From Gemmatimonas phototrophica (GTDB lineage Bacteria > Gemmatimonadota > Gemmatimonadetes > Gemmatimonadales > Gemmatimonadaceae): a stretch of DNA of 64,000 bases. The notes beneath the pieces were generated by a model. That model did not search any database and had not been told where the DNA came from. It saw only the letters and a list, made by a program, of their open reading frames with translations. The first letter of the stretch is position 1. Every line of letters begins with the position of its first letter. The stretch is taken from positions 372,001 through 436,000 of the forward strand of contig CAMBNV010000001.1 in assembly GCA_945869195.1 (NCBI GenBank), given 5' to 3'. A program made the translations under genes and the position numbers. This document shows positions 2,002-55,205 of the stretch, piece after piece.

Positions 2002-2077
2002 CACCAGTCGCTTTCTTCGGCGCGCGCTCTCCAGCGGTTATCTTTACAGTCGTGAACTGCGCACTCGGTACCACCCG

Positions 2078-2608
2078 ATGAGGATCGTCGGCGGCAAGTA
2101 TGGCGGCCGCGACCTGCTTTCCCCCTCCGACTTCCGCGTCCGGCCTACGGCCGAACCGGTCCGCGCGGCCCTGCTCGACCTGCTCGCCGCCGACATCAAA
2201 AACGCGAGCATCATCGAGTTCTTCGCTGGCACCGGCGCGATCGGTCTCGAAGCAATCTCGCGCGGTGCGCGGCGCTGTGACTTCATTGAGACGCGCCCCT
2301 CGAGCCTGCACGCGCTCAAGGCCAACGTCGCCCTGCTGCGCATGAAGCTGAAGACGCGGATTTTCAAGAAAGATGCGGTGCCGTTCGCCGCCCAGCTCAA
2401 CGAAGACGCGTACGACATCGCCTTCGCCGATCCGCCGTATGGCTCAAAGATGCTCGACCATGTGATCCGGGCGTGGAAGGAGAAGCGGTTCTCGCGCATC
2501 CTCGCCGTGGAGCATGAGAGAAAGCACAGTCTCCCGAAGGGCGACGAGTCGCTCACGATCGAAGACACCACGATCACGATCTACCGACGGCCCGCTCCCT
2601 CACCATGA
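2078..2608 (+). CDS. rsmD: 16S rRNA (guanine(966)-N(2))-methyltransferase RsmD
   Basis: A 176-residue class I SAM-dependent methyltransferase. MRIVGGKYGGR at the N-terminus and the PTAEPVRAALLDLL block are typical of RsmD. The SAM-binding loop is FFAGTGAIGLEA and the catalytic motif IV is DPPY (in FADPPYGS). The family methylates G966 of 16S rRNA during 30S assembly. The ATG at 2078 is chosen because homologs start at this point; the longer open frame upstream encodes low-complexity arginine-rich sequence. In many genomes rsmD is followed by coaD, but here the next gene (a convergent amidase) breaks that arrangement. Confidence 0.92.
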   Translation: MRIVGGKYGGRDLLSPSDFRVRPTAEPVRAALLDLLAADIKNASIIEFFAGTGAIGLEAISRGARRCDFIETRPSSLHALKANVALLRMKLKTRIFKKDAVPFAAQLNEDAYDIAFADPPYGSKMLDHVIRAWKEKRFSRILAVEHERKHSLPKGDESLTIEDTTITIYRRPAPSP

Positions 2609-2702: not shown

Positions 2703-4385
2703 TTAGCGCCCGCGCCGCAACGGTGGAGTCGTGGTCGGGGGCCGCCGATGCTTGGTCGCCTGCTCGTACGCGAATCCGTAGCCAAGCAATAGCGACTCAC
2801 TCCAGGGGCGGCCGAGAAACTCGAGCCCTACCGGCAACGAGTCGCTCGAAAACCCAGCCGGCACCGTGAGCGCCGGCCACGCGAGGGTCGGGCTCAGGCC
2901 ACGATTGTCGCCGAGTCCGTAGCCGTCGGTCGGCCGCGGATTCGTCAGCACGTCGGCGGCGATCAACTGCGGCGGCGCATCGTAGGTCATGTACACGAGC
3001 ACGTCGAGCCGGTGGTCGGCCATCAGCTTGAGCACCGCTACCCGCTGCGCCTCTCGCTGTTGCATCACGAGCAGATAGTCGGCGTCCCGCGTGCTCTTGC
3101 CGACGTACGCGATTAATCCGCGCGCGCGCCACGGATTCACCGGTCCGGTGAGCAGAATCTCCTTCAGCGTCTTCAGCGGCGCGTTTGCATGCTGCGCGAA
3201 GTAGGTGTCGGTCGCTTCTTCGGTCTCGAAGTCGTTCCCCACGCGCCGACCAGCGGCAACCGGCACCGTGAGCGAGTCGACGATCACCGCGCCCAGTTTG
3301 CGCAGATCGACCAGCGCCTGCTCCATGACAATCCGCACCTTGGTGTACTCGGCCCTGGTCACCCGAGCGAGTGAGTCGCGGCGGGCAAGCGAGTCGCGGC
3401 GCGCAGGCGAGTCACGGCGGCCCGCCGAGTCGCCTGGGGTGGCGGCCGCCACGGTGCTCGGCCCGGCGATGGTGTCGCGGCGGGTGCGCAGCACACCAAT
3501 ACGCGCACCGCGCAACGCGTCGGTCTTGAGTGCGGCGGTATATGTCGCCGGCACCTCACCGAACGAATACGCCGTCACCGGGTCGGCCGCGTCATACCCT
3601 GCAATCACGTCGAGCACCCGCGCCGCATCGGCGACGGTGCGCGTCATTGGCCCCATAGTGTCCTGCGTCGGGTTGGCGGGGAGCATCCCGAAACGGCTCA
3701 CGAGCGGCAGCGTCGGGCGCAGGCCCACGAGGCTACTCACCGCCGCGGGGCCGCGGATCGATCCGCCGGTGTCCTCGCCAATCCCCACGAGCCCAAAGTT
3801 GGCCGCCACGGCGGAGGCGGAGCCGCCCGATGACCCGCTCGGATTCCGTCGCGGGTCGTACGCGTTGCGAATGATGCCCGCGCCCGATCCGACATAGCGT
3901 GACGCGAACTCCCCCATCGTGGTCTTGGCGATGATGATCGCGCCGGCGGCTTCGAGCCGCTTCACCGCGGTGGCATCGCGCTGCGGCGTGAAGTCCTTGA
4001 AGACCGCGGATCCATACGTGGTCGGCATGTCGATAGTCTCGATCTGGTCCTTGATCACAACAGGGACACAGTGGAGGGAGCCACGCGGTCCCCGCGCGCG
4101 CTGGACCGCATCGAGCGAGTCGGCCTCGGCGAGCGCGCGCACATTGATGTGCTGGATCGAGTTGAGCGCGGGCCCGGTCTGATCATAGGCCGCAATACGA
4201 TCGAGGTACGACTGGATGAGCTGCCGGCAGGTGAGGCGCTGGGCATCAAGGGCGGCGTGAACGGCGGGGATCGTCGCTTCCATCACGTCGAACTGTTGTG
4301 CAGCAAGCGGCACGGGTGTGAGGGCCATGAGCGGTGCAATGAGCAGCGCGCGCGCAACGCGCATCCTGGCGGTAACAATCTTCAT
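2703..4385 (-). CDS. Secreted amidase (amidase-signature family)
   Basis: A 560-residue amidase-signature hydrolase. A signal peptide (MKIVTARMRVARALLIAPL, cleavage near LAAQ) places it in the periplasm. The Ser-Ser-Lys triad is visible: Lys in VVIKDQIE, the cis-Ser in NPSGSSGGSAS, and the nucleophile in GEDTGGSIRGPA. The family hydrolyses carboxylic amides; the substrate here is unknown, and the signal peptide argues against tRNA-dependent amidation. Around residues 317-339 there is an inserted repeat of the unit RRDS(P/L)A, just after a conserved GVLRTRRD strand. The ATG overlaps the stop of the upstream amidohydrolase by 4 nt, so the two are probably translationally coupled. Confidence 0.9.
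   Translation of the reverse strand: MKIVTARMRVARALLIAPLMALTPVPLAAQQFDVMEATIPAVHAALDAQRLTCRQLIQSYLDRIAAYDQTGPALNSIQHINVRALAEADSLDAVQRARGPRGSLHCVPVVIKDQIETIDMPTTYGSAVFKDFTPQRDATAVKRLEAAGAIIIAKTTMGEFASRYVGSGAGIIRNAYDPRRNPSGSSGGSASAVAANFGLVGIGEDTGGSIRGPAAVSSLVGLRPTLPLVSRFGMLPANPTQDTMGPMTRTVADAARVLDVIAGYDAADPVTAYSFGEVPATYTAALKTDALRGARIGVLRTRRDTIAGPSTVAAATPGDSAGRRDSPARRDSLARRDSLARVTRAEYTKVRIVMEQALVDLRKLGAVIVDSLTVPVAAGRRVGNDFETEEATDTYFAQHANAPLKTLKEILLTGPVNPWRARGLIAYVGKSTRDADYLLVMQQREAQRVAVLKLMADHRLDVLVYMTYDAPPQLIAADVLTNPRPTDGYGLGDNRGLSPTLAWPALTVPAGFSSDSLPVGLEFLGRPWSESLLLGYGFAYEQATKHRRPPTTTPPLRRGR
3367..3434. repeat. 18-bp tandem repeat inside the amidase gene
   Basis: Nearly four copies of an 18-bp unit built on gagtcgcggcgg. 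On the minus strand they encode RRDSPA, RRDSLA, RRDSLA and a degenerate copy. The unit length is a multiple of three, so copy-number change keeps the frame. The encoded segment is basic and polar and probably forms a surface loop in the enzyme. Confidence 0.8.
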
Positions 4386-7300
4386 GGCGTTCCCCTGATC
4401 CCGGCGGCGGCCGAGGGGACCGTGTACGACCACGGCCGCGGGGGGAGCGGACGCTGCCGGGGATGGAGCTCGTCGAGCGTGTTGCCGTCGTAGAGCCGGC
4501 CGCCGATCATCACCATGGCAACCGAGTTCGAGTTGCGGATGTTCGCCAGCGGGTCGCGGTCGAGCACGAGCAGGTCGGCCATCTTCCCTGTCTCGAGCGA
4601 TCCGATGTCGGTCGCAAGTCCGATTGCCTCGGCCCCCACGATCGTCGCTGCCCGCAGGGCATCGTGTTCGGGCAGTCCGCCGCTCTGCAACAGCCAAAGC
4701 TCCCAATGCATGCCCAGTCCCTGCAACTGGCCGTGCGAACCCACGCCGATTTTCCCGCCGTTGGCCACGGTTTTTGCGATATCCTCGGCGTGCTGCCACA
4801 TCGCATACTCCTCGCGCAGGGCGAAGCCAGCCGGTCCGGGGGCGTTGCCGGTGCCGCGGCGACGGATCTTGGCCGAGAGATCGATTGGATGCGTGAAATA
4901 GCGGAGCTTCGTGTCGTTCGCGAGATCCTCAGTCTGGTAGAACCAGCCCTCGCCGAATGGGCCGCCGTACTCGACGATCAGCGTCGGCGAGTTGTACGTA
5001 CCCGTCGCCTTGTACCACTCGAACAGATCAGTGAACTTCGGCGTGATCGGCAACGTATGTTCAATCCCAGGGTAGCCGTCGATCCCATGTGTCATGTCGA
5101 GCTTCTGGTCGAGCCCACCCTCGGTCGTCGGCATAATCCGCAGCTCGCGCGCCGCCTGGATGATCCACTGACGCTGCTGCCGATTGCCGCTCATATACAT
5201 CTTGAGCGTTTTCGTGTCGTAGTACTTGGCATAGCGCGCCATGACCTGCCGTGCATGGTCGAGGTCGCGCACCGCTTCGGCGGCGAAGACGCCCGGGCCC
5301 GTGGTATAGATGCGCGGACCGACCATCTCGCCCGTGGCGACGCGGTCGCCATAGGTCAGAAAATCGGTCGTGGCCGTCTGCGGGTCGCGGGTGGTGGTGG
5401 TGCCGTACGCGAGCGTGGTCAGGTACTGCCAGGTCTGGGTGTTGTGCACTCCCGGCGTCAGCCACTGCGGATGGTAGTGGGTGTCGACCATCCCCGGCAT
5501 GATCACTTTGCCCGTCACGTCGATGACGCGCGCACCGGCGGGGACGGTCACGCTACCCCGCGGTCCGATCGCGACGATCCGATCGTCGGTCACCACGATG
5601 TCGGCGTTCTCAATGATCTCATGGGCGCGCATCGTGATCGCCTTCGCGCCGCGAAACACCACGGTGCCCTGCACCCGATCGCGCGTGGCGGTCACGGCGA
5701 TCCGCGACTCCGCCGGCTTGTAGCCCGGCTTTTCCTTCTTAGTGGTGTCGGCTTTGGTAATGGAGTCGGCACGGGTGAGGCTGTCTTTCTTGGTCGTGTC
5801 GGCACGGACGAGTGCGACGCGACGCGCCTCCACCTTCAAAGAATCGTCAACGACCTTTGCGCGATCGAGATCGAAGGTCCAGATGGCGTTACCCAATCCC
5901 CACATCAGGCGGCGGCCATCCGCGCTCCAGGCCGGAAACTCACCACCGATCTCGTTGAGCTTGCGCACCGGCACGGCTGCACTCGCGGGTGCCGCGACCG
6001 AGACAGTCGGGGCGGTCGTCCCCGTCTGTGTGATCGGAAGTACGTAGAAGTCCATCCCGACCACCGCGAGCGCCTGATCTCCTGTTGGTGACATCAGGAT
6101 CAGGCCGGCTGAGGGCGGCGTGGGGTTGTTCTCGAGATCATTGGCGTCGTCGCCTACGTGTGATCGAATCGGCGTGCCGGCGGCCGCGTCGTACGGGCGC
6201 GGCGACCCGATCGTGAGTGGGCGGGCGGCCCGTCCGCCGATCATCCGCGCCGTTTCCGCATCGAGGCTCGCGTCGAGCGTCATCGTGCCGCTCGCGCTCG
6301 GCGGCATCGGTCCCGTCACGCGCAGGTGCGTCTTGAGATCGGTGCCGTCCCAGCGGAACGAGACGAGGCCGTCGCGGCCGCTGTACGCGAAGATGCGCTC
6401 GCGGTCCGCCGTGAAGTGCGGGTTCGCGAGCCCGCCGGTGGGCAAGATCACGGTCTGCGTGCCGCCCGTCGCAGGTAGCCAGACGAACTGCGCCGCCACC
6501 GGCCCGAAGAACGCGCCACCCGCCTCCTGCATCTCGCGGGCGGCCGCGCGCGTCGCGACGATCCGGTCGCCCGCCGGCGACCAGGCGAGGTCAGAGTAGT
6601 GCGCTCCACTCGCGAGCGTCTGCGCGGTCCAGCCGCGGCGCGCGTCGAAGCTCGCCCGCACGACGCTGCCCCCCTGTGCGTCAGTCCACGTCGTCCACGC
6701 CAGCGATTTCGAATCCTGCGACCAGGCGGGCATGAACTCGCCGACCGTCGCCGTGCTCACGCGACGGGGTACGCCGTGGGGCAGGTCCATCACATAGATC
6801 TTGTCGAGTGCCGAAAACGCGAGCTTGGCGCCGTCGGGCGACGGCGCCAGGTCGCGCACTTGGTGCGCCGTAAAGGTCGACGCCGTGTCGACCCGATATG
6901 CGAACTTCACTTCGGGACCCATCTCGAGGGCGACGTCGGCGCTGAACGGGATTTTCGTCGACGCCGTGCCGTCGGCCGGCACGCGCCAGATGCCGCCGCC
7001 ATACGAGACGACAACGCTCCGCGAGTCGGGCGTGAATGAGAAGCCAGGGTACGCATCCATGGACGCGCGCGATTCGGTCTCGTCGCGCTGCACCGGGAAG
7101 GCCAGCCAACGCTCTTCCTGCGTCCCGAGATCGCGGAGGCGCAGCCCCGTCTTGGTCTCGAAGCGCGTCGCATAGACGAGATACTTGCCGTCGGGCGAGA
7201 GCGTCGGACGGAATGCGGACCCGAAGCGTGTGGTCATCTGCGCGGTGCGGCCGTTCTCACGATCCCAGGTGTAGATCTGGTATTGCGGCCCCAGCGCGTT

Positions 7301-7960
7301 GTACTGCCAGTCGCCGGTGCGTGCTCCAAACCAGAGATAGCGCGGATCGTTGCCGTACGCCGCGCCCATCATCTTGAGCTGTGGCGGAGGCGTTGGCGTT
7401 GCGGTCAGTGCGAATCCATTGCCACCCTCGACATGGTACTGCCAGAGCTTCGCGGTACCGCCGAGCCCACCCGACTTGGACACAATCACGTATTGGCCGT
7501 CGGGCGTCCACTCGGGGGAGACGTAGATGTTGTTGTTCCCCTTGGTCAGTTGCGTAGTGTCCTTCAGGTCGAGCGCGAGTATCCACACGTTGTCGCCGCC
7601 ACTGCGGTCAGAGACAAACACAATCTTTTTGCCATCGGGCGAGAAGCGCGGCTGCACATCGTACGCCATGCCTCGCGTGATCCGCGTCGCTTTGCCGCCG
7701 GCGATCGACAGCGTGTAGAGATCTCCGAGTAGATCGAACACAATCGTCTGGCCGTCAGGCGAGACGTCGAGCGAAAGCCAGGTGCCCTCGGTGGCGGTAA
7801 AGCTGTGCGTGCGCGCGGTCTTGAGCGGCAGCGTCACGGCGGCGGTCGCAACGCTGGGTACGCTCTGCGCGCCGGTAGTGACGGCGACTGGCGCGAGTGC
7901 CGCAGCGAGGGTGAATGCGATGGTGAATGCGAGGGTACGGTCGAGTCGGCGCATTGTCAT
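4382..7960 (-). CDS. Large secreted amidohydrolase with PD40/TolB-like propeller
   Basis: About 1192 residues. After a signal peptide (cleavage near TTGAQS) the first 700 residues carry repeated SPDGxxIVF and SPEWTPDGQY motifs typical of TolB/PD40 propeller blades. A linker of alternating RADS and TKKDS units precedes a C-terminal amidohydrolase domain. That domain has its metal-binding HxH in GMVDTHYHPQW (near residue 825) and a later GSHGQLQG histidine, and ends in the typical ETGKMADLLVLD sequence. The family is metal-dependent (imidase/imidazolonepropionase-like) and in this architecture is thought to act on peptides or cyclic amides; the true substrate is unknown. The ATG at 7960 gives the best signal peptide; a GTG at 7984 adds 8 residues. 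It is coupled to the downstream amidase by an ATGA overlap. Confidence 0.88.
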   Translation of the reverse strand: MTMRRLDRTLAFTIAFTLAAALAPVAVTTGAQSVPSVATAAVTLPLKTARTHSFTATEGTWLSLDVSPDGQTIVFDLLGDLYTLSIAGGKATRITRGMAYDVQPRFSPDGKKIVFVSDRSGGDNVWILALDLKDTTQLTKGNNNIYVSPEWTPDGQYVIVSKSGGLGGTAKLWQYHVEGGNGFALTATPTPPPQLKMMGAAYGNDPRYLWFGARTGDWQYNALGPQYQIYTWDRENGRTAQMTTRFGSAFRPTLSPDGKYLVYATRFETKTGLRLRDLGTQEERWLAFPVQRDETESRASMDAYPGFSFTPDSRSVVVSYGGGIWRVPADGTASTKIPFSADVALEMGPEVKFAYRVDTASTFTAHQVRDLAPSPDGAKLAFSALDKIYVMDLPHGVPRRVSTATVGEFMPAWSQDSKSLAWTTWTDAQGGSVVRASFDARRGWTAQTLASGAHYSDLAWSPAGDRIVATRAAAREMQEAGGAFFGPVAAQFVWLPATGGTQTVILPTGGLANPHFTADRERIFAYSGRDGLVSFRWDGTDLKTHLRVTGPMPPSASGTMTLDASLDAETARMIGGRAARPLTIGSPRPYDAAAGTPIRSHVGDDANDLENNPTPPSAGLILMSPTGDQALAVVGMDFYVLPITQTGTTAPTVSVAAPASAAVPVRKLNEIGGEFPAWSADGRRLMWGLGNAIWTFDLDRAKVVDDSLKVEARRVALVRADTTKKDSLTRADSITKADTTKKEKPGYKPAESRIAVTATRDRVQGTVVFRGAKAITMRAHEIIENADIVVTDDRIVAIGPRGSVTVPAGARVIDVTGKVIMPGMVDTHYHPQWLTPGVHNTQTWQYLTTLAYGTTTTRDPQTATTDFLTYGDRVATGEMVGPRIYTTGPGVFAAEAVRDLDHARQVMARYAKYYDTKTLKMYMSGNRQQRQWIIQAARELRIMPTTEGGLDQKLDMTHGIDGYPGIEHTLPITPKFTDLFEWYKATGTYNSPTLIVEYGGPFGEGWFYQTEDLANDTKLRYFTHPIDLSAKIRRRGTGNAPGPAGFALREEYAMWQHAEDIAKTVANGGKIGVGSHGQLQGLGMHWELWLLQSGGLPEHDALRAATIVGAEAIGLATDIGSLETGKMADLLVLDRDPLANIRNSNSVAMVMIGGRLYDGNTLDELHPRQRPLPPRPWSYTVPSAAAGIRGTP

Positions 7961-7985
7961 GATGACGGTTGGCGTAGGAGACACC

Positions 7986-7999
7986 CTCTATGTATAGAG
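7986..7999. promoter_or_regulatory. Perfect 14-bp palindrome upstream of the amidohydrolase
   Basis: CTCTATGTATAGAG is two 6-bp arms around GT. It lies 26 bp upstream of the chosen amidohydrolase start, in the divergent region shared with sdhC. The minus strand reads TATACA within it, which could be a -10 box. A dimeric repressor or activator site is plausible. No regulator gene lies next to it. Confidence 0.45.
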
Positions 8000-8028
8000 C
8001 GCATGGCACGCAACTTAGCCCCCAACCT

Positions 8029-8090
8029 GACAGCAACGCGAGGCTCGCCGCTGCACGAGCGCTGCTCGTGCAGGCCCTCACGTTGCTGTC
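8029..8090. repeat. 62-nt nested inverted repeat in the sdh upstream region
   Basis: The outer arms GACAGCAACG and CGTTGCTGTC (10 bp) enclose GAGG/CCTC and an inner hairpin CTGCACGAGC-gct-GCTCGTGCAG (10 bp), all symmetric about one centre. As RNA it would form one long stem with two small internal loops. It lies about 94 nt before sdhC and 70 bp before the divergent amidohydrolase. No U-run follows it on either strand, so a simple intrinsic terminator is unlikely. It could be a leader structure or a protein-binding site. Confidence 0.75.
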
Positions 8091-8183
8091 TGCGCCCGCC
8101 CGCTGCATCTTTGCCGAGCCTCGGACCGGGAAATGCCGCACCCGCGCGTCCGCACGACCAAACTACTCACGAGAATGCCCCGC

Positions 8184-8984
8184 ATGAATCGTTCGCTGCC
8201 GGTGATGGACCAGCGCGGCTTTGGCGAGACGCTGCGCCGGGACAAATGGTGGATTGCCAACATCTTCGTCGTCACGGTCCTGAGTAGTTTCCTCGCGTAC
8301 GCCACCTGGGCGGCGCTCCAAAACGCCTTCTATACGCATGGGCCGTACCTCTCGCCCTTCTACTCGCCGGAACTCTTCGGGGCCTCGCCGCATGCCTGGT
8401 TCGGCCCCAAGCCAAGCTGGTGGCCGGGATTCATCCCGTTCTCGCCGGCGCTGATCATCCTCCCCGTCCCCGCCCTCTTCCGTTTCACCTGTTACTACTA
8501 CCGCGGGGCGTACTACAAAGCATTCTGGGCCGATCCGCCGGCCTGCTCCGTGGGCGAGCCTCGCAAGACCTACCTGGGTGAGAACTCGTTTCCGCTGATC
8601 ATGCAGAATGTGCACCGGTACGCTCTGTTCTTTTCGTTCATCTTCCTGATATTCCTCTGGCACGACGCTTACCTCGCGCTCTGGTTTACCGACGCCAACG
8701 GGGTCGAACGGTTCGGCGTCGGCGTCGGCACGATCGTGATGTTCGCCAACGTCAGCATGCTCTCCGGCTACACGCTCGGCTGTCACTCCATGCGCCACCT
8801 CGTCGGCGGCCTCTTGGACCGTCTCTCCACGTCACCCGTCCGTAAACTCGCCTACGACTGTTCCAGTGCCTGCAACCGCGGCCATATGAACTGGGCCTGG
8901 GTCAGCCTCTTCGGTGTGGCGCTCACCGATGTGTACATCCGGCTCTGTGCCATGGGTGTGCTGACCGACCTGAGGATTATCTAG
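8184..8984 (+). CDS. sdhC: Succinate dehydrogenase membrane subunit, type F (Sdh1-like)
   Basis: A 266-residue integral membrane protein with about five hydrophobic segments. The block GPYLSPFYSPELFG and the overall length match the membrane subunit of mycobacterial Sdh1 rather than the classic four-helix heme b anchors. Residues C200-H201, H205, C226, C230 and H234 (GCHSMRH and CSSACNRGH) are candidate ligands. Mycobacterial Sdh1 is known to carry a membrane-embedded Rieske-type [2Fe-2S] cluster held by His and Cys, so a similar cluster is inferred here. Its stop is directly followed by the sdhA start. The start at 8184 has GAGA 9 nt upstream; ATG 8175 is an alternative. Confidence 0.88.
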   Translation: MNRSLPVMDQRGFGETLRRDKWWIANIFVVTVLSSFLAYATWAALQNAFYTHGPYLSPFYSPELFGASPHAWFGPKPSWWPGFIPFSPALIILPVPALFRFTCYYYRGAYYKAFWADPPACSVGEPRKTYLGENSFPLIMQNVHRYALFFSFIFLIFLWHDAYLALWFTDANGVERFGVGVGTIVMFANVSMLSGYTLGCHSMRHLVGGLLDRLSTSPVRKLAYDCSSACNRGHMNWAWVSLFGVALTDVYIRLCAMGVLTDLRII

Positions 8985-10802
8985 ATGGCCGAGTACGAGC
9001 GGGTTGAGCATGATGTGTTGGTGATTGGTGCCGGCGGCGCGGGCCTACGCGCGGCGATCGCCGCAGCGGCCGGTGGCGCGCGCGTGGGCCTCGTCTGCAA
9101 GTCGCTCCTCGGCAAGGCGCACACGGTCATGGCCGAGGGTGGCGTGGCGGCGGCGATGGGTCATGTAGACGACCGCGATAACTGGCGCGTGCATTTTGCC
9201 GATACCATGCGCGGCGGGCAGTACCTCAATAACTGGCGGATGGCCCAGCTGCACGCCCAAGAGGCACCCGACCGCGTGCGCGAGCTCGAGGCGTGGGGCG
9301 CGGTCTTCGATCGCACCACCGACGGTCGGATTCTGCAGCGCAACTTTGGCGGGCATCGATATCCGCGCCTCGCGCATGTGGGCGACCGCACCGGTCTCGA
9401 GATGATTCGCACGCTCCAGGACCATGCGATCCATTTGGGCATCGACGTGCACATGGAGGTCACCGTCGTCCAGCTCCTCAAGGATCGCGACCGCGTGGCC
9501 GGCGCGATGGCGTACGACCGCGAGCGCGGTCGGTTCAAGCTCTTCTCGTGCGGCGCGGTGGTACTCGCGACCGGCGGCATCGGACGCGCGTTCGACATCA
9601 CGAGCAATAGCTGGGAGTACACCGGCGACGGACACTCGCTCGCCTACGACGCGGGTGCCGAACTCGTGGATATGGAGTTCGTGCAGTTTCATCCCACCGG
9701 CATGGTCTGGCCGCCGAGCGTGAAGGGGATCCTCGTGACGGAGGGGGTGCGCGGTGAGGGCGGCGTGCTGCGCAACAAGGATGGCAAGCGCTTCATGTTT
9801 GACGACATCCCCGATAACTACAAGGGCCAAACCGCCGACAACGAAGAAGAGGGCTGGCGCTACACGCAGGGCGACAAGAGCGCGCGCCGCCCCCCCGAGC
9901 TACTCACCCGCGACCACGTGGCGCGTTGCATCCAGCGTGAGGTGCGTGAGGGACGCGGCAGTCCGCATGGCGGCGTCTATCTCGACATCGCGTGGATCAA
10001 GGAACGCTTGCCGAAGGGCGCGGAGCACATCCGCAAGAAATTGCCGTCGATGTATCACCAGTTCAAACAGCTCGCGAACATCGACATCACGGCGGTGCCT
10101 ATGGAAGTCGGGCCCACAACCCACTACATCATGGGCGGCATTCGCGTGGACGGTGACACGCAGATGTCTAACGTCCCGGGACTCTTCGCCGCGGGCGAGT
10201 GCGCCGCTGGACTGCACGGCGCCAACCGGCTTGGCGGAAACTCGCTCTCCGACCTGCTCGTGTTCGGCAAGCGTGCCGGCGAACATGCGGTGGCATTCGC
10301 CAAGAGTCAGGCCGCGGCGCGACTGGCTCCTGTCGATGCCGATGCTTCTGTGGCCGCGGCACTGGAACCGTTCGAGCGCGGCGGAAGTCCAGAGGCGCCG
10401 TACGCGATCCAGCACGAGCTACAGGGCCTGATGCAGAAGCTGGTGGGCATCGTGCGCGAGGAGGGCGAGATGCGCCAGGCGCTCAGCGGCGTGGCCAAGC
10501 TACGTGAGCGGGCGATGCACGTCGGCGTGCACGGCAACCGCGAGTACAACCCCGGCTGGCATACCGCGCTTGACCTGCACCACCTCATGACCGTATCGGA
10601 GGCCATCACCCTTGCGGCGCTCGAACGCAAGGAGAGCCGCGGCGGGCACTTCCGCGACGACTATCCCGACAAGGACCCCGCCTACGCCAGATTTAACATC
10701 GTGCTGCGCAAGGGCCTCGACGGCGCGATGGAGCTTGAGCGCCGTACGATCCCACCGATGCCAGACGATCTGAAGGCCATCATCGAGGAGCAGAAGTCCT
10801 AA
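8985..10802 (+). CDS. sdhA: Succinate dehydrogenase flavoprotein subunit
   Basis: A 605-residue flavoprotein. The N-terminal dinucleotide fold is VLVIGAGGAGLRAA, and the histidine in LGKAHTVMAEGG is the expected site of covalent FAD attachment. Catalytic-site motifs are HPTGM and TEGVRGEGG, with the capping-domain arginine in the latter, and the later GLFAAGECAAGLHGANRLG block is typical. It oxidises succinate to fumarate on the cytoplasmic side as part of complex II. The gene is fused head to tail with sdhC (0 bp) and overlaps sdhB by 1 nt (TAATG), so the three subunits should be made from one message in fixed ratio. Confidence 0.95.
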   Translation: MAEYERVEHDVLVIGAGGAGLRAAIAAAAGGARVGLVCKSLLGKAHTVMAEGGVAAAMGHVDDRDNWRVHFADTMRGGQYLNNWRMAQLHAQEAPDRVRELEAWGAVFDRTTDGRILQRNFGGHRYPRLAHVGDRTGLEMIRTLQDHAIHLGIDVHMEVTVVQLLKDRDRVAGAMAYDRERGRFKLFSCGAVVLATGGIGRAFDITSNSWEYTGDGHSLAYDAGAELVDMEFVQFHPTGMVWPPSVKGILVTEGVRGEGGVLRNKDGKRFMFDDIPDNYKGQTADNEEEGWRYTQGDKSARRPPELLTRDHVARCIQREVREGRGSPHGGVYLDIAWIKERLPKGAEHIRKKLPSMYHQFKQLANIDITAVPMEVGPTTHYIMGGIRVDGDTQMSNVPGLFAAGECAAGLHGANRLGGNSLSDLLVFGKRAGEHAVAFAKSQAAARLAPVDADASVAAALEPFERGGSPEAPYAIQHELQGLMQKLVGIVREEGEMRQALSGVAKLRERAMHVGVHGNREYNPGWHTALDLHHLMTVSEAITLAALERKESRGGHFRDDYPDKDPAYARFNIVLRKGLDGAMELERRTIPPMPDDLKAIIEEQKS

Positions 10803-11551
10803 TGACCGCTCACACATTCAAAGTCTGGCGCGGCGAGCGCGGTACCGGCGCCTTCCAGGACTACAGCACCGACATCACTGAAGGCATGGTGGTGCTCGAC
10901 GCGATGCATCAGATCCAGGCCGAGAACGCCAACGACCTCGCCATCCGCTGGAACTGCAAGGCCGGCAAGTGCGGCTCTTGCTCGGCTGAGGTCAATGGAC
11001 ATCCCAAACTCATGTGCATGACGCGGATGGATGAGTTGCCGGCGCACGAGCCGGTCACCGTCGAGCCGATGCGCGCATTCCCCCATGTCCGCGACCTTGT
11101 CACCGATGTCTCGTGGAACTACGAGCAGAAGAAGAGGATCAAGAAGTTCAAGCCGCGCGCCCCCGACGCGCCCGACGGCACCTGGCGGATGATGCAGGCG
11201 GATGTGGACCGGGTTCAGGAGTTCAGGAAGTGCATCGAGTGCTTTCTCTGCCAGGACGTCTGCCACGTACTGCGCGACCATCACAAGCATGACGAGTTTG
11301 TCGGGCCGCGGCATCTGGTCTACACGGCCGCCCTCGAGATGCACCCGCTCGATATCGAGGATCGCCTGGGCGATCTCAAGGATGAGCACGCGATCGGATA
11401 TTGCAACATCACCAAGTGCTGCACGACAGTCTGTCCGGAGCACATCGCGATTACCGACAACGCGATCATCCCGCTCAAGGAACGCGTGGTAGATTCGTTC
11501 TACGATCCCGTAGTGAAGTTGGTGCGGCTACTCCGAGCCAAACGCACATGA
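10802..11551 (+). CDS. sdhB: Succinate dehydrogenase iron-sulfur subunit
   Basis: A 249-residue iron-sulfur protein. The N-terminal ferredoxin-like domain binds a [2Fe-2S] cluster through CKAGKCGSC and a fourth cysteine in LMCMTR. The C-terminal domain carries CIECFLCQDVC and CNITKCCTTVCPEHI, the usual ligands of the [4Fe-4S] and [3Fe-4S] clusters. It passes electrons from SdhA to SdhC. The length is close to that of mycobacterial Sdh1 SdhB. The start overlaps the sdhA stop by 1 nt, and its own stop overlaps the next gene by 4 nt (ATGA), which ties that gene to the operon. Confidence 0.95.
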   Translation: MTAHTFKVWRGERGTGAFQDYSTDITEGMVVLDAMHQIQAENANDLAIRWNCKAGKCGSCSAEVNGHPKLMCMTRMDELPAHEPVTVEPMRAFPHVRDLVTDVSWNYEQKKRIKKFKPRAPDAPDGTWRMMQADVDRVQEFRKCIECFLCQDVCHVLRDHHKHDEFVGPRHLVYTAALEMHPLDIEDRLGDLKDEHAIGYCNITKCCTTVCPEHIAITDNAIIPLKERVVDSFYDPVVKLVRLLRAKRT

Positions 11552-12060
11552 CGCACACTGAGCCACAACTCAAGACGATCACTAAGGGGGGTATTGCTGC
11601 CGCACTCCTCAAGGGCCATCGCTACCGTGTGCTCAATGACTCCGTCGCCGCCGAGAGCATCTGTCTCGACGTCCTGGCGATCGAACCAGACAACGTCGAA
11701 GCGTTGACGATGCACGTACTCGCGATCACCGACCAATTTTCCTCCGGTCAGGCCAACGACTTGGCGCGCGCCGGGATCGCGGTCGATCGACTCACGGACG
11801 CCTACCGGAACGCGTACTACCATGGCGTCATCTGCGAGCGATGGGCGTGGTCAGTCCTACAGCGTTCGCCCCCGCGCGCGGGAGAAATGGCATACGACTG
11901 GGTAGAAAAGGCGCTCGTCTGGTACGCCAAGGCTGAATCGTTGCGCGCGGCCGGCAACGACGAGTCGATACTGCGGTGGAACACCTGCGTCCGACTACTG
12001 CAGCGCGATCCGCAGCTGAAGCCGCGCGACGCCGAGGCGTGGGAGCCGAGTCTGGAGTAG
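11548..12060 (+). CDS. TPR-like hypothetical protein in the sdh operon
   Basis: A 170-residue protein without signal peptide or membrane segment. The pattern AESICLDVLAIEPDNVEALTMHVLAI is a TPR-type helix pair, and the rest also predicts as helical repeats (WVEKALVWYAKAESLRAAG). Its start overlaps the sdhB stop by 4 nt, so it is translated with complex II. A role as assembly or stability factor for Sdh is a reasonable guess from position only. Known Sdh assembly factors (SdhE-like) look different, and I do not recognise a named family. Confidence 0.75.
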   Translation: MTHTEPQLKTITKGGIAAALLKGHRYRVLNDSVAAESICLDVLAIEPDNVEALTMHVLAITDQFSSGQANDLARAGIAVDRLTDAYRNAYYHGVICERWAWSVLQRSPPRAGEMAYDWVEKALVWYAKAESLRAAGNDESILRWNTCVRLLQRDPQLKPRDAEAWEPSLE

Positions 12061-12086
12061 CCCCCTCTGGCGTCAGGCACGGCGTA

Positions 12087-12110
12087 CTCGCAGGAGGATG
12101 TACCTGCGAG
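12087..12110 (+). terminator. Hairpin after the sdh operon
   Basis: CTCGCAGG and CCTGCGAG form a perfect 8-bp stem around an 8-nt loop, 27 nt after the stop of the last sdh-operon gene. No clear U-run follows, so termination strength is uncertain. The next gene on this side is convergent, so a transcript end is expected here. Confidence 0.5.
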
Positions 12111-12163
12111 TGTCGGCGAACCGCGCCCGGTCACAAGAGGTTCTGCACAATCATCCGATAAGA

Positions 12164-12178
12164 ACAATTAATTATTGT
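12164..12178. other. AT-rich palindromic island between convergent genes
   Basis: ACAATTAATTATTGT has 5-bp complementary ends around an AT core and stands out in very GC-rich surroundings. It lies between the ends of the sdh-operon TPR gene and the minus-strand gene at 12219. The remaining bases of this 158-bp interval show no gene. Confidence 0.4.
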
Positions 12179-12218
12179 AACGGCCGGGCGATGATCAGTC
12201 TCGCAGAGCTCAACGGTG

Positions 12219-12527
12219 CTACGCGGTCGCTTCGGGCGGCGCCGACTGACCGAGCGCCGGATTCCCCGAGGGCGCATCAGGCCGTTTTCCCCAATGCGCG
12301 CCATGGCGCGTCGGCTGGGAGAGCTGAAAGAGGCGGTTCAGATAAAACCCCACGATACGCTCCTGCACGGAGGCCCGGGTATCGCTCTTGGCCGCGACGA
12401 ACGGGGCATACCGCTGCCCGTCGCCCGAGACCCCAAACCACCACCACGACTCCCCTGCGCCCTTACGCTCCTCGATCGTGCAGCTGTAGGCGCGGCCATC
12501 GTCGTTGAACTCGAAACCTTGGATCAT
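12219..12527 (-). CDS. Conserved-looking hypothetical protein
   Basis: A 102-residue protein with no signal peptide. The first 65 residues are compact and rich in aromatics (GFEFNDDGRAYSCTIEERKG, then ESWWWFGVSGDGQRYAPF) and look like a small beta-sheet domain. The last 30 residues are low-complexity and probably disordered. The tryptophan run and regular polar/hydrophobic alternation support a real gene rather than a shadow. It diverges from yaeQ across 121 bp. No function can be assigned. Confidence 0.65.
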   Translation of the reverse strand: MIQGFEFNDDGRAYSCTIEERKGAGESWWWFGVSGDGQRYAPFVAAKSDTRASVQERIVGFYLNRLFQLSQPTRHGAHWGKRPDAPSGNPALGQSAPPEATA

Positions 12528-12648
12528 GTACCGCCCGAGTGAGAGTGCTGTAATCTAACCAACTTGACCTCTCGATGCGCAGGGGAGCCGGTCTGGATGT
12601 CGGAATACGCTGCGCTCCACCCAACCCGCCAACCACTAGCATTCACGG

Positions 12649-13194
12649 ATGGCACTCACCGCTACTCTCTATTCGTTCGACATCGCCCTGAGCAACGTCG
12701 ACCGCGGCGTCTACGAGCAACTCACCATTAAGGCCGCCTGTCATCCGAGCGAGAGCGAGGAGTACCTCCTAACGCGCGTCCTCGCCTACTGCCTCGAGTA
12801 CACGGACGGCATCGCCTTCTCCAAGGGAGGCATCGCCGACGCCGACGAGCCGGCGATCACGGTGAAAGACCTCACGGGCGCCTGGAAGAGCTGGATTGAG
12901 ATCGGATCACCCGACGCCGCCCGATTGCATCAGGCCAGCAAGGCGAGCCCGCGGGCTGCGCTCTACACGCATAAGGAACAGCGCACGCTCTTCCGAAACT
13001 ACGAAGGCCAACGGATTCACAAGGCGGAGAAGGTCGAGGTGTATTTCATGGACCGGGAGCTGCTCGCTTCACTCGCGTCGCATCTCGACCGACGAAATAT
13101 TTGGACGCTGTCTGTGACCGACGGACTGATTTATCTCGATGTCGGCGGTGAGACACTGGAGGGTACGGTGCAGCGCGTGGCGCTGCCTGGGTAG
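12649..13194 (+). CDS. yaeQ: YaeQ family protein
   Basis: A 181-residue YaeQ protein, the usual length of the family. MALTATLYSFDIALSNVDR, the LTRVLAYCLEYTDGIAFSKGG block and the WIEIGSPDAARLHQASKAS segment are all characteristic. YaeQ has a PD-(D/E)XK nuclease-like fold; the acidic residue followed by WIEIG would be part of that core. Enterobacterial YaeQ was reported to influence transcription antitermination, but a nuclease substrate is not known. No operon partner is evident. Confidence 0.9.
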   Translation: MALTATLYSFDIALSNVDRGVYEQLTIKAACHPSESEEYLLTRVLAYCLEYTDGIAFSKGGIADADEPAITVKDLTGAWKSWIEIGSPDAARLHQASKASPRAALYTHKEQRTLFRNYEGQRIHKAEKVEVYFMDRELLASLASHLDRRNIWTLSVTDGLIYLDVGGETLEGTVQRVALPG

Positions 13195-13273
13195 GGGCGA
13201 CGCAATCTCACTCCCCCAGCAGATGCGCCTCTCCAAGCGTATTCCATCGACTCCAAATTTTGAGGCCTTTCAG

Positions 13274-13699
13274 ATGCGTCGGTCGCTCCTCACTGCCCCA
13301 TTGCTCGCACTCCTTTCCCTCGGCGGCTGCTCCAACGCCACTCCGACCATCGCGGCCGCCCCCGTTCCCGTAGGCCCGATTGTTCCCGCAGGCGTCACGC
13401 CAGCGAGCATTGCGATGGGCGACTCTATTTTCAATACGGGCGCCTGCCAGCGCTGCCACGGCCTCAAGGGCGTGGGCGCACAGAACGGTCCGAGTTTGGT
13501 CGCAGGGCCGTGGCTACACAGCACCGGCAAGTTCGAAGAGATCGCGGCGGTGATCACCACCGGTGTCGCACGCACGGCGCTCAATGACCAGACCCGCCGC
13601 TTTCCCATGAATCCGCGCGGCGGTCCCATGAACCTCAGTGACGATCAGGTGAACGCCGTCGCCGCCTACGTCTATTCAATCTCGCGCGACCGGCGCTAG
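13274..13699 (+). CDS. Lipoprotein c-type cytochrome
   Basis: A 141-residue class I cytochrome c. The lipoprotein signal is MRRSLLTAPLLALLSLGGCSN, with the lipobox cysteine at residue 19, so it should be anchored to a membrane outside the cytoplasm. One heme site is present: CQRCH. The C-terminal DDQVNAVAAYVYSIS helix is typical of mono-heme cytochromes, and a methionine in NPRGGPMNLS is a likely sixth ligand. The ATG at 13274 gives a clean signal peptide; an upstream in-frame ATG at 13223 would add 17 residues. It could carry electrons to the caa3 oxidase encoded 10 kb away, but this is inference. Confidence 0.85.
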   Translation: MRRSLLTAPLLALLSLGGCSNATPTIAAAPVPVGPIVPAGVTPASIAMGDSIFNTGACQRCHGLKGVGAQNGPSLVAGPWLHSTGKFEEIAAVITTGVARTALNDQTRRFPMNPRGGPMNLSDDQVNAVAAYVYSISRDRR

Positions 13700-13730
13700 C
13701 GCGACCCGGCGATTCAGTGCACCGGGAGCA

Positions 13731-14216
13731 TCAGATCTCGGTCATCGACATCGTCATCGCCCTCCCGCTCTCCGGTGCGACCAGGCGGCGATGATAATCG
13801 ATCTGCCCCAGGTGGTACGCCAAGTGCGAACAGAGATGCATGAGGAAGCGCGCCGTCTGTATTCGTCGCCCGGCAAGTTCGATTGGGAACGGCCCCGCGA
13901 GCGTCGCCGCCGTGAGCGCGGGGATCACCCGGTCGGCATCGGCGAGTGCGAGCTCCACCTCAGCCACGATCGCGGCGCGTGTGAGGCCGCGGGCATTGAA
14001 CTCCCGTTCGCGGTCACGCTCCGTGCCGTTGTGCCCAAGCACCGAACCAAAAAAGTGGCGAATATTGCCGGCGAGGTGCAGCGCCAGCGTCCCACCGGTG
14101 TTGGTGATGCCCGGCAGCTCCTGCCAGAGCTGCGCATCACTGGGGTACGCCGAAACCTCGCGGACGAGGGCGCGTAGGTCACGTACCAGCACCGCGTGCA
14201 GATCGTCAGGACTCAT
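13731..14216 (-). CDS. DinB-family (four-helix) metal-binding protein
   Basis: A 161-residue DinB-fold protein. Histidines that may bind a metal lie in LALHLAGNIRHFFG and in the C-terminal helix MHLCSHLAYHLGQIDYHRR. Enzymes of this superfamily include thiol transferases that use bacillithiol or mycothiol, and many members are uncharacterised. No signal peptide is present. A second, distinct DinB protein is encoded at 51506. The start lies only 13 bp from the first usable start of the divergent rhomboid gene, so the two promoters must overlap coding sequence or be very short. Confidence 0.8.
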   Translation of the reverse strand: MSPDDLHAVLVRDLRALVREVSAYPSDAQLWQELPGITNTGGTLALHLAGNIRHFFGSVLGHNGTERDREREFNARGLTRAAIVAEVELALADADRVIPALTAATLAGPFPIELAGRRIQTARFLMHLCSHLAYHLGQIDYHRRLVAPESGRAMTMSMTEI

Positions 14217-14228
14217 AGGGCCTCCAGT

Positions 14229-14894
14229 GTGTCGGTATGGTCCGCCAAAAATAGGTCCGCGCTCCGTGCGCGCGCGACTTCCAACCCCGAGGACCGACCG
14301 ATACTGCTGCCTCCCACCCTAATCAGCGTCGTCCGCACGCTCAAGGTGCACGCCGGAATCCTTGGCGCCAGCGTCGCGGCGCTCTGGGCGGTCTTCGCGG
14401 TCGACACCCTGCTCGGAGGCGCTCTGCAGCACTACGGTGTCGTGCCACGCACGATCGAAGGACTTCGTGGCATTGTACTCGCGCCCTTCCTCCATGGGAG
14501 CCTCTCGCATCTCTCGGCGAACACGGCCTCGCTCCTGGTCCTTGGCTGGCTCGTCCTGCTCCGCGATCCGCGACACTTCTGGATTGTCGCGATGTTGGCG
14601 ATGTTCGGCGGTGGAGTCGTGGCCTGGCTGCTCGGCGCGGGAAACTCGGTCCATATCGGCGCGAGCGGCGTGATCTTCGGCTTTCTCGGGTTTCTTATCT
14701 TCGCCGGCTGGTACGCGCGCAGCTTCGGGAGCATCCTGCTGAGTATCGTCGTGTCGGTCCTCTGGGGCGGACTCGTGTTCGGGGTCCTGCCTGGGGAGCC
14801 TGGAATCTCGTGGCAGGAACATCTCGGAGGATTCGCCGGCGGAGTGCTCGCCGCGCGATGGTTCTCGCCTGGCAGACGGATTATATCCGGATAG
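14229..14894 (+). CDS. Rhomboid-family intramembrane serine protease
   Basis: A membrane protein of about 221 residues with six hydrophobic segments. The rhomboid catalytic serine lies in HIGASGVIFGFLGF (GxSG) and the partner histidine in WQEHLGGFAGG. The HGSLSHLSANT motif of TM2 is also conserved. The family cleaves transmembrane segments of other proteins; the substrate here is unknown. The frame has no ATG. GTG at 14229 is chosen because AGGG lies 8 nt upstream, but GTG 14196 and GTG 14346 are possible, so the first 40 residues are uncertain. The gene ends 2 bp before the -35 box of the DUF2239 promoter. Confidence 0.85.
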   Translation: MSVWSAKNRSALRARATSNPEDRPILLPPTLISVVRTLKVHAGILGASVAALWAVFAVDTLLGGALQHYGVVPRTIEGLRGIVLAPFLHGSLSHLSANTASLLVLGWLVLLRDPRHFWIVAMLAMFGGGVVAWLLGAGNSVHIGASGVIFGFLGFLIFAGWYARSFGSILLSIVVSVLWGGLVFGVLPGEPGISWQEHLGGFAGGVLAARWFSPGRRIISG

Positions 14895-14896
14895 TA

Positions 14897-14933
14897 TTGA
14901 CTGCCGATATTACCGTGGTAATATTAGGTAACA
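14897..14933 (+). promoter_or_regulatory. DUF2239-MATE promoter with palindromic operator
   Basis: TTGACT (14897-14902) and TAATAT (14919-14924) are separated by 16 bp and look like strong sigma-70 boxes. A perfect palindrome, ATATTACCGTGGTAATAT (14907-14924, 8-bp arms and 2-bp centre), fills the spacer and covers the whole -10 box. A bound dimer would block polymerase. The DUF2239 ATG starts only 8 nt after the -10 box, so the mRNA should be leaderless or nearly so. Confidence 0.7.
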
Positions 14934-15544
14934 TGGATACCAGAGCAGCAGTTTCGTTCGCCGGCGCCCGTTTCATCGCGGCCGGCCCGCTCGCCGACGT
15001 CGCGCTCGCCACCCAGGCAGCCGAGTCGGCCGGCCTCGACCGCGCCCCAATCATCTTCGACGCCATCACCAGCGAGCCGATCGACCTCGACCTGCACGGC
15101 ACGGCCGATGAGCTGCTCGCGCGGGTGCTGGCCCTTTCACGAACCACCAGCGAGTTGGGCGCCGGCGAATCCGAGTCGCACCGCGGCCCCGGTCGCCCGC
15201 GTCTTGGCGTCGTGGGACGCGAGATCACGCTGCTTCCGCGCCACTGGGACTGGCTTGCCACTCAGCCGGGTGGTGCCTCAGCCGCGATCCGCCGACTCGT
15301 CGACCAGGCGCGGGTGACGCATGCCGGCCGCGACGCAACGCGCCGCGCGCAGGAATACTCGTACCGCTTCATGACCGCGATGCTCGGCGACCAAGCCGGC
15401 TTTGAAGAGGCGACCCGCGCGCTCTTCGTCGCCGATCGCGAACGCTTCACTGAACTCACCGCGCCCTGGCCCGTCCCCTTGCGCGATCATGCGCGCCGGC
15501 TGGCCGACGACGCGCTCTCACCGGACGCTCTTGCCGATGCATGA
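14933..15544 (+). CDS. DUF2239 protein, possible repressor of the MATE exporter
   Basis: A 203-residue DUF2239 protein of unknown function, recognised by RGPGRPRLGVVGREITLLPRHWDWLATQPGG. Two features suggest DNA binding. RGPGRPRLG (84-92) contains a GRP core like an AT-hook, and residues 96-127 (a short strand REITLL, then two helices) resemble a ribbon-helix-helix layout. It is expressed from a promoter covered by a perfect palindrome and overlaps the MATE gene by 8 nt. The reading that it represses its own promoter and the exporter is inference; the family has no established role. No signal peptide or membrane segment is seen. Confidence 0.85.
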   Translation: MDTRAAVSFAGARFIAAGPLADVALATQAAESAGLDRAPIIFDAITSEPIDLDLHGTADELLARVLALSRTTSELGAGESESHRGPGRPRLGVVGREITLLPRHWDWLATQPGGASAAIRRLVDQARVTHAGRDATRRAQEYSYRFMTAMLGDQAGFEEATRALFVADRERFTELTAPWPVPLRDHARRLADDALSPDALADA

Positions 15545-16910
15545 CCTCACGCAGGGCTCAATCCCGCGACACATCGTCCGCATGGCCGTCCCGATGGCGA
15601 TCGGTATGGTCTTCCAGACGCTCTACTATCTGGTCGATCTCTATTTCGTCGGCCGACTCGGTGATGCCGCAATCGCCGGTGTGAGCGCCGCCGGGAATAT
15701 CCAGTTCATCGTGATGGCGCTCACGCAGGTCCTCGGCGTCGGCACGATGGTCCTCATCTCGCATGCAGCGGGGCGCAAGGATCAGGCCGACGGCAATCTC
15801 ATTTTCAATCAGAGTCTCGTGTTGGCGGCGATCGCGGCCGCCATCGTCTTCGTCGGTGGCTTTCTCTTCTCGGCGCGGTATCTCAGCACGCTCGCTCCCG
15901 ACGCCGAGGTACTCAAGGCCGGCACCGACTACCTGTATTGGTTCCTCCCCGCCCTCGCCCTGCAGTTCGCGCTCATCTCGATGGGCTCGGCACTGCGCGG
16001 TACCGGCATCGCGAAGCCGACGATGATTGTGCAGGTACTCACGGTGGTGCTCAACATCATGCTCGCGCCGGTACTCATTGCCGGCTGGGGCACGGGCCGT
16101 CCGATGGGGGTAGCCGGCGCTGGTCTCGCCAGCACGATCTCAGTGCTCGCGGGTGTGATCGCGTTGCTCGTCTACTTTATGCGCCTCGAGCACTTCGTCG
16201 GCTTCAACGCGGCGCTCATCCGACCGCACTTCGCCACCTGGAAACGTCTGCTCAAGATCGGTGTGCCTGCCGGTGCCGAGTTCGGGCTGCTGTTCTTTTC
16301 TATGTTCGTGATCTTCCTGATCATCCGCGACTTCGGCTCGGCGGCGCAGGCCGGCTTCGGCATCGGATCCCGGATGATGCAGGCGATCTTCCTCCCCGCG
16401 ATGGCGGTCGCGTTCGCGGCGGCACCGGTCGCCGGGCAGAACCTCGCCGCAGGGAAACCCGACCGCGCGCGCCAGACCTTCGTCGAGGCCGTCAAGATTG
16501 GCACCGGCGTGATGATCGCGGCGACCCTCTTTGCACACTGGCGCCCCGAATGGCTGATCGGTGCCTTCACGTCCGATCCAGAGGTCGTGGTCGTCGCGGT
16601 GGAATACCTGCGCACGATCTCGTTGAACTTCGTCGCCTCGGGTATCGTGTTCTCCTGCTCCGGCATGTTCCAAGCGATGGGGAATACCGTGCCGTCGGCG
16701 ATCAGCAGTGGCGTGCGCGTCGTGGTGTTCGTGGTGCCGGCGCTCTACATCGCCCGGCTGCCGGGCTTCCAACTGCACTGGATTTGGTACGTATCGGTCG
16801 TGTCGACGACCACGCATGCGCTCTTCGCGGTCTGGTTGCTCAAGCGGGAGTCAGACAAGCGGCAGGACCTCGGGCTCGGCGCCGCCCGAGGCCCTACACG
16901 ACCACGTTGA
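15537..16910 (+). CDS. MATE-family multidrug exporter
   Basis: A 457-residue membrane protein with about twelve hydrophobic segments in two similar halves. MAVPMAIGMVFQTLYYLVDLYFVG at the N-terminus, and the RGTGIAKPTMIVQ and AMGNTVPSAISSG loops (one in each half), are characteristic of MATE antiporters, which expel cationic drugs or dyes using Na+ or H+. The ATG lies 8 nt inside the end of the DUF2239 gene, so it is co-transcribed and probably coupled. The substrate is unknown. The 3' end overlaps the convergent leuS by 17 bp. Confidence 0.92.
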   Translation: MHDLTQGSIPRHIVRMAVPMAIGMVFQTLYYLVDLYFVGRLGDAAIAGVSAAGNIQFIVMALTQVLGVGTMVLISHAAGRKDQADGNLIFNQSLVLAAIAAAIVFVGGFLFSARYLSTLAPDAEVLKAGTDYLYWFLPALALQFALISMGSALRGTGIAKPTMIVQVLTVVLNIMLAPVLIAGWGTGRPMGVAGAGLASTISVLAGVIALLVYFMRLEHFVGFNAALIRPHFATWKRLLKIGVPAGAEFGLLFFSMFVIFLIIRDFGSAAQAGFGIGSRMMQAIFLPAMAVAFAAAPVAGQNLAAGKPDRARQTFVEAVKIGTGVMIAATLFAHWRPEWLIGAFTSDPEVVVVAVEYLRTISLNFVASGIVFSCSGMFQAMGNTVPSAISSGVRVVVFVVPALYIARLPGFQLHWIWYVSVVSTTTHALFAVWLLKRESDKRQDLGLGAARGPTRPR

Positions 16911-54482: not shown

Positions 54483-55205
54483 ATGCCAGATACCGAAAAG
54501 CCGGCCGAAGTAATCGCTCCGCTTACCCCGCCGAAGCGTCATCCTGGACACCGCGGCCAGGACGTCCGCGACACTGTCGCCGAGATGGCAGCGAAGGCCC
54601 ACGAAATCTCGCTTGAGGCCGGTTCCAAGATGGCGGCCGCGATGAAGGATGTCGTTGGCGCCGCCGCTGGCCTCGTCTCCTTCTCCATCGAGAGCACGCG
54701 CGATCTCGTGCAGTATATGGTGCGCCGTGGTCAGATGACGCAGGATGAGGCCGACAAGCTCATTCGCGACGCTGAAGAGGCCTGGCTCAAGAAGAACAAG
54801 GGTAAGGTCCTCCCCAAGATCGGCGCCTCGCCGTTGGCGAAGCCGATTCTCGGCATGCCGATTCGGCCTGCCCCTGCCGCGCCGGTGGCCAAGCCGGTGG
54901 CCAAGCCGGTGGCCAAGCCGGTGGCCAAGCCGGTGGCCAAGCCGGTGGCCAAGCCGGTGGCCAAGCCGGTGGCCAAGCCGGTCGCCAAGCCCGCGGCCAA
55001 GCCCGCGGCCAAGCCGGTCGCCAAGAAGGCGGCCAAGCCGGTCGCCAAGAAGGCGGCCAAGCCGGTGGCCAAGAAGGCGGCCAAGCCGGTGGCCAAGAAG
55101 GCGGCCAAGCCGGCGGCCAAGCCGGCGGCCAAGAAGACCCCCGCTCCGGCCAAGAAGCGGGTCAGTCATAAGCCCGCCGCCAAGAAGCCCGCGCCACATA
55201 AGTGA
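54483..55205 (+). CDS. Histone H1-like / PhaF-like protein with AAKP repeats
   Basis: 240 residues in two parts. Residues 25 to about 110 form a helical domain (VRDTVAEMAAKAHEISLEAG, then LVQYMVRRGQMTQDEADKLI) like the N-terminus of phasin-related or PHA-granule-associated proteins. Residues 135-218 are 21 tetrapeptides of type VAKP, AAKP or VAKK, followed by a basic tail, as in the DNA-binding half of PhaF and in AlgP/H1-like proteins. The tail should bind DNA by charge. A role in chromosome compaction, or linking granules to DNA, is inference. No PHA genes are nearby. A strong hairpin follows the stop. Confidence 0.8.
   Translation: MPDTEKPAEVIAPLTPPKRHPGHRGQDVRDTVAEMAAKAHEISLEAGSKMAAAMKDVVGAAAGLVSFSIESTRDLVQYMVRRGQMTQDEADKLIRDAEEAWLKKNKGKVLPKIGASPLAKPILGMPIRPAPAAPVAKPVAKPVAKPVAKPVAKPVAKPVAKPVAKPVAKPAAKPAAKPVAKKAAKPVAKKAAKPVAKKAAKPVAKKAAKPAAKPAAKKTPAPAKKRVSHKPAAKKPAPHK
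54885..55136 (+). repeat. 12-bp coding tandem repeat (AAKP/VAKP array)
   Basis: Twenty-one 12-bp units, starting with eight identical copies of GTGGCCAAGCCG and one GTC variant, then an alternating VAKK/AAKP pattern of 24 bp repeated four times. The identical copies suggest recent expansion by slippage or recombination; length may vary between strains and may be collapsed in assemblies. Confidence 0.9.

Follow-up and report, generated by a model that had tools for sequence, protein, structure and literature searches.

A 62-nt nested inverted repeat (8029-8090) separates a succinate dehydrogenase operon from a divergent amidohydrolase gene in the window, by which we mean the whole 64,000-nt stretch of DNA analysed here. 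This repeat is real and beyond chance. We give about an even chance to the view that this is a DNA palindrome of recent origin, specific to one lineage, which would occupy untranscribed DNA separating two divergent predicted promoters and would have come about through an inverted copy of the sdh -35 region.

Results

A nested inverted repeat between two divergent genes

To the left of the repeat, a gene combining PD40/WD40 repeats with an amidohydrolase domain (4382-7984, minus strand; PF07676, PF01979) reads away from it, with a true start that may instead lie at 7960 or 7954. To the right, on the plus strand, follow sdhC, the succinate dehydrogenase membrane anchor (8184-8984; PDB 7d6v chain C, E 6.7e-52), sdhA, the flavoprotein subunit (8985-10802; NF005866, 994 bits against a cut-off of 819), and sdhB, the iron-sulfur subunit (10802-11551; NF009052, 409 bits against a cut-off of 256). 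The start of sdhC is likely the ATG at 8184, because in most close relatives the alignment begins at residue 17 or 18 of the longer open reading frame. Elsewhere in the window, an ORF at 54483-55205 (plus strand) carries a long AKPVAKPV / KKAAKPVA repeat tail, and presumably resembles histone H1-like proteins.

The repeat is built from outer arms of 10 bp, a 4-bp pair and an inner hairpin of 10 bp, with arms and coordinates exactly as an earlier note on this DNA had given them. Its left outer arm, GACAGCAACG (8029-8038), which reads CGTTGCTGTC on the minus strand, pairs perfectly over 10 bp with the right outer arm, CGTTGCTGTC (8081-8090). Across a single mismatch follows the 4-bp pair, GAGG (8040-8043) with CCTC (8076-8079), and inside it lies the inner palindrome CTGCACGAGC-GCT-GCTCGTGCAG (8051-8073), the halves of which (8051-8060 and 8064-8073) form ten perfect pairs around a loop of 3 nt. 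The note had assigned a single centre to all of these; the outer and 4-bp pairs do share one, at 8059.5, but the inner pair is centred 2.5 bp further right, at 8062, because the internal loop is lopsided, with 7 unpaired bases on the left (8044-8050) and 2 on the right.

Two 10-bp arm pairs were not seen in any of 3000 dinucleotide shuffles of 7985-8183, and one such pair appeared in 26 of them, which bears out the earlier judgement that the arrangement is far beyond chance. For comparison within the same genome, we used a sample of 464 kb in 21 stretches (the window and 20 sampled stretches). It contains 77 perfect arm pairs of at least 10 bp, against a shuffle mean of 47.7. Only at 8029-8090 does one perfect 10-bp arm pair enclose another inside 62 nt; shuffling every stretch three times produced no nested pair. 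As RNA, 8020-8100 (81 nt) folds at -44.2 kcal/mol (z -5.0), and as DNA the 62 nt fold at -26.4 (z -5.8). By 62-nt folding energy the repeat ranks second within the window, and 13 places in the 464-kb sample fold at -42 kcal/mol or lower, among them an intergenic one at -49.3 directly after a gene end. Energy by itself is therefore not unique to the repeat, while its nesting is.

Could the repeat be an intrinsic terminator, or a transcription insulator between the two genes? Its stem is GC-rich, and many intergenic hairpins of this genome come after gene ends. However, both neighbours of the repeat start here and neither ends here, whereas the other intergenic hairpins mostly follow gene ends, several of them with T-runs. 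On both sides of the repeat, and on either strand, a T-run is absent, in line with the remark of the earlier note that no U-run follows, and the search for terminator-like sites returned 0; we regard this reading as highly improbable. Nor does any Rfam family match the repeat at or above threshold. A self-cleaving ribozyme of the twister-sister type, to which a full-length but sub-threshold match (RF02681, 14.1 bits) might point, or another known RNA family, seems next to impossible, given a gathering score of 34 bits for RF02681, microRNA precursor models that outscore it on the same hairpin, and scores of 13.6-16.3 for it at four further genomic sites.

The repeat is single-copy and absent from relatives

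The element occurs once in its genome, the next best matches being at most 38 nt long with E values of at least 0.036, and the dispersed repeat considered in the earlier note is rejected on this ground. Among 179 genomes of the family, matches to 7940-8260 were limited to the own locus, to the coding ends of sdhC and of the amidohydrolase gene, and to one match in G002; this last match (34 nt, 88%) does not carry the outer arms and looks like chance. A DNA search with the spacer gave no homologous match in the 178 other family genomes, and the outer arms, allowing anything from 25 to 55 nt between them, were found in 1 of the 179, its own. The repeat is thus absent from 178 other family genomes (one genome per species) and has no copies elsewhere, an outcome that the earlier note had regarded as adverse to its proposal.

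Covarying copies upstream of sdhC, which that note had suggested looking for, did not turn up either: a structure scan covering 94 of 96 sdhC loci, a count that includes duplicates and one misplaced locus (L087), revealed no homologous structure in the 94 upstream regions. Two of the loci have hairpins of another kind upstream of sdhC. In L026 (~2753-2858) and L050 (~447-540), inverted pairs of tandem arrays with 9-nt units (e.g. GAAGCACGA / CCCGTGCTT and GAGGTGCTC / CCTCGAGCA) form long hairpins, that of L050 reaching -54.6 kcal/mol per 62 nt; arrays of this type were not seen in the 464-kb sample. Kinship of these arrays with the inner hairpin, considered for the GCACGAG-like letters in L026, was dropped, there being one GCACGAG...CTCGTGC pair in 464 kb.

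A predicted sdhC promoter in the right arm

A scan for consensus promoter hexamers found none, and a learned model was required. We trained a two-box promoter model on the sdhC upstream regions of relatives, leaving out the window; after removal of this, of the duplicates L028, L038 and L079, and of upstreams shorter than 140 nt or containing N, the set comprised 90 upstreams, of which the 45 closest served for training and the remaining 45 were held out. Three seeds gave the identical model, TTGaCa-N17-(T/C)AnnTT, with a log-likelihood of 90.9, compared to 26.9-34.8 in four shuffled sets. Held-out upstreams reached 8 bits in 28 of 45 cases (12.4 expected) and 11.4 bits in 20 of 45 (3.75 expected). 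The model, whose training relatives belong to Gemmatimonadota and to further phyla, is a by-product of use in its own right; our literature search found no paper on promoter mapping in Gemmatimonas.

Between the two genes, the top plus-strand site of the model is TTGCTG-N17-CATCTT (8083-8111) with 11.5 bits, the next site scoring 4.3. It places a predicted -35 box at 8083-8088, overlapped by the right outer arm, and a predicted -10 box at 8106-8111, separated by a 17-nt spacer. When the region is shuffled, 11.5 bits are attained in 30 of 2000 trials, and 56 of 4592 random 202-nt stretches attain them as well (~1-1.5% per region); the call is therefore good, though not certain. A relative, L003 (genome G021), has TTGCTG-N17-CATACT in the same place, and 25 of 42 nt around the promoter are identical between the two, a level reached by 3 of 1000 shuffles. 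L003 stands alone in this among the relatives compared, with no significant promoter alignment found for L027, L025, L026 or L029; for L004, a close relative, the model predicts no promoter (2.0 bits). Model and alignment together thus support an sdhCAB promoter at 8083-8111 with a predicted start at about 8118. In L025, the nearest sdhC relative (80% identity), a different strong dyad fills the spacer between TTGACA and TTGTTT, about 50-75 nt ahead of the sdhC ATG.

As the predicted -35 box lies inside the right arm of the hairpin, the predicted sdhC transcript starts downstream of it. This is at odds with the idea, raised in the earlier note, that the repeat belongs to an sdh leader RNA. A structured leader or attenuator controlling sdhCAB would have to be transcribed from a promoter further upstream, for which the best candidate is TTGGCG-N18-TATAGA (7969-7998). 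The very stable fold and the location of the hairpin upstream of sdhC, on the coding strand, are compatible with such a leader, but the upstream candidate has 4.3 bits, a score for which chance alone predicts 0.8 sites in the region, the favoured predicted promoter lies downstream, and the 94 sdhC upstream regions lack a homologous structure. Moreover, when z was computed for the 60 nt that precede and enter the -35 box, values below -3 occurred in only 3 of 63 promoter-bearing upstreams, the present locus included; in this set, hairpins are thus no common trait of sdh promoters. We consider a leader RNA very unlikely.

The divergent side and a possible two-way operator

Read on the minus strand, the left arm also offers a TTGCTG hexamer (8036-8031), which faces the amidohydrolase gene. 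The best minus-strand site from within the spacer combines it with TTGCGT at a distance of 17 nt; its score of 7.1 bits is not significant, as 340 of 2000 shuffles reach it. The candidate -10 region (8008-8017, minus strand) is weak and may consist of the model's TTGCGT (8013-8008) or of TAAGTT (8017-8012), a TAAnnT being visible by eye in a similar place in several amidohydrolase orthologues. Whichever applies, the -35 box would lie wholly or partly within the left side of the dyad. On weaker evidence than for sdhCAB, then, the left arm overlaps the likely -35 box of the divergent gene.

This arrangement recalls the bidirectional regulatory site proposed in the earlier note. Of that proposal the geometry fits, since the repeat spans the gap between the divergent promoters, whereas a regulon, conservation and a known motif did not emerge. 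In its explicit form, a dimeric regulator would bind the inner 23-bp palindrome, the outer arms or both, and switch the two divergent genes; the centre at 8062 would sit near -56 relative to the start predicted for sdhC and near -61 relative to that predicted for the amidohydrolase gene, with the outer arms 52 bp apart, or about 5 helical turns. The location between divergent promoters with the arms over predicted -35 boxes, and the nesting of perfect arms far beyond chance, are in favour of this, and selection could equally keep arms perfect. A second site is missing, however. With up to 2 mismatches the inner palindrome has one copy in its own genome, and with up to 3 it has one other place there, the same as the reversed-pattern control; at 2 mismatches it is found in 9 of 179 family genomes, its own and 8 of the 178 others, and reversed-pattern controls are commoner. 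We thus see no regulon, in the sense of matching sites at other promoters beyond the level of the reversed-pattern control. In addition, the element is not conserved upstream of sdhC or of the amidohydrolase gene in relatives, and domain searches detected no regulator domain in either flanking gene. A literature search on sdhC operators gave no paper on Gemmatimonadota by title. We therefore take a two-way operator to be possible, if somewhat unlikely: nothing found calls for an operator use of the palindrome, and a regulator with a single target is possible.

The sdh block between ancestral neighbours

Orthologues of the amidohydrolase gene, with 77-89% identity over nearly the full length, are present in seven same-genus genomes (G014, G016, G015, G003, G012, G004 and G010), and in none of the seven is it preceded by sdhC or by the hairpin; likewise, the amidohydrolase gene adjoins sdhC in 0 of 95 sdhC loci from elsewhere. 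An sdhC of this kind is found in 15 of 40 relatives, and in only 3 of 16 of the same genus; its nearest matches, in a scan that retained the best 80 of 580 confirmed relatives, come from metagenome assemblies of Gemmatimonadaceae and Gemmatimonadetes.

In G016 and G003, matches to 12219-12527, 12649-13194 (YaeQ), 13139-13699 and onwards in the window lie just beyond the amidohydrolase orthologue, and the genes of window 12219-16910 are near this orthologue there, without sdh between. What sits between the orthologue and these neighbours is a gene matching window 2044-2577, which we take to be rsmD-like; the window copy itself has no match in Pfam. It follows from this ancestral order of neighbours that the sdh block occupies the place of another gene in those relatives. 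As both of its flanks are near neighbours in G016 and G003, an assembly chimera at the junction is unlikely. Together with sdhCAB, an ORF without family match (11401-12060) makes up the block, which lies inside window 7984-12219, and the palindrome lies at its left edge. Right after this last ORF, at 12067-12130, there is a stable hairpin (-33.6 kcal/mol) in a terminator-like position.

A repeat at the left edge of a block set between ancestral neighbours could be what is left of a mobile element, be it a dispersed repeat, a small transposable element or a recombination site brought along by the block. Yet the repeat is single-copy, the longest repeat common to the two block edges (left 7960-8200, right 11901-12700) measures 9 nt, and no target-site duplication was seen by eye. 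This explanation is already largely refuted, and we hold out scant hope for it.

A possible origin by template switching

For the origin of the palindrome, the comparison with L003 is instructive: the right-arm region matches the sdhC promoter of this relative, and the palindrome is absent in relatives. Read backwards, the left arm (CTCGCGTTGCTG) agrees with L003 (TTCGCGTTGCTG) at 11 of 12 positions, the right arm (CTCACGTTGCTG) at 10 of 12. The left arm is one base nearer to L003 than the right arm is, which suggests that it copies an earlier state of the right arm. Template switching can create perfect hairpin stems (PMC8794818), and it is from the perfect arms and this one diagnostic base that we infer such an event.

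The sequence of events would then be as follows. The right arm, the older piece, would be the part of an inherited sdhCAB promoter that contains the -35 box; the sdh block would have come to adjoin the amidohydrolase gene, and a short-range template switch during replication, the simplest route to such arms in a single event, would then have copied this part in inverted form to give the left arm. Its TTGCTG copy may now double as the -35 box of the amidohydrolase promoter, while the hairpin, lying outside the predicted sdh leader RNA, probably has no dedicated function as a folded structure.

Discussion

If a young palindrome born of an inverted promoter copy is the right reading, one lineage can acquire a strong promoter palindrome that is no conserved RNA element, and a stable fold ahead of an operon should not be taken for a leader without caution. 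Should the palindrome serve both promoters, it would provide a small case, open to testing, in which a control region derives from an inverted duplication. A bolder version of this seems distinctly unlikely to us, namely that the inverted -35 duplication made, in one step, a two-way regulatory site from which sdhCAB and the amidohydrolase gene each draw a -35 box, and in which the inner palindrome either binds a regulator or is extruded as a cruciform, so that the two are switched; if true, a new divergent control region would have been born by template switching after the rearrangement of a gene block.

Several known systems invite comparison. An enrichment of inverted repeats in the vicinity of genes and regulatory regions is on record (PMC10434271). 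The repeat has the GC-rich stem-loop of intrinsic terminators, but differs from them by the lack of a T-run and of a gene end on either side. With divergent promoters controlled by an inverted-repeat operator, it has in common a dyad that lies between divergent genes and over both predicted -35 regions, but here without an adjoining regulator gene, a second site or conservation. Bidirectional promoters with a shared -10 box resemble it in that symmetric DNA drives both directions; in these, however, the divergent starts are most often 18 bp apart (PMC12825309), whereas here more than 100 bp separate the predicted starts and it is the -35 region that is symmetric. Finally, the repeat differs from the template-switch cases cited here in its site, a promoter instead of an rRNA stem, and the event behind it is deduced from present-day sequence. 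With these quasipalindrome mutations it nevertheless shares perfect reverse-complement arms at short range, confinement to one lineage and a possible origin in one step (PMC8794818, PMC7202029).
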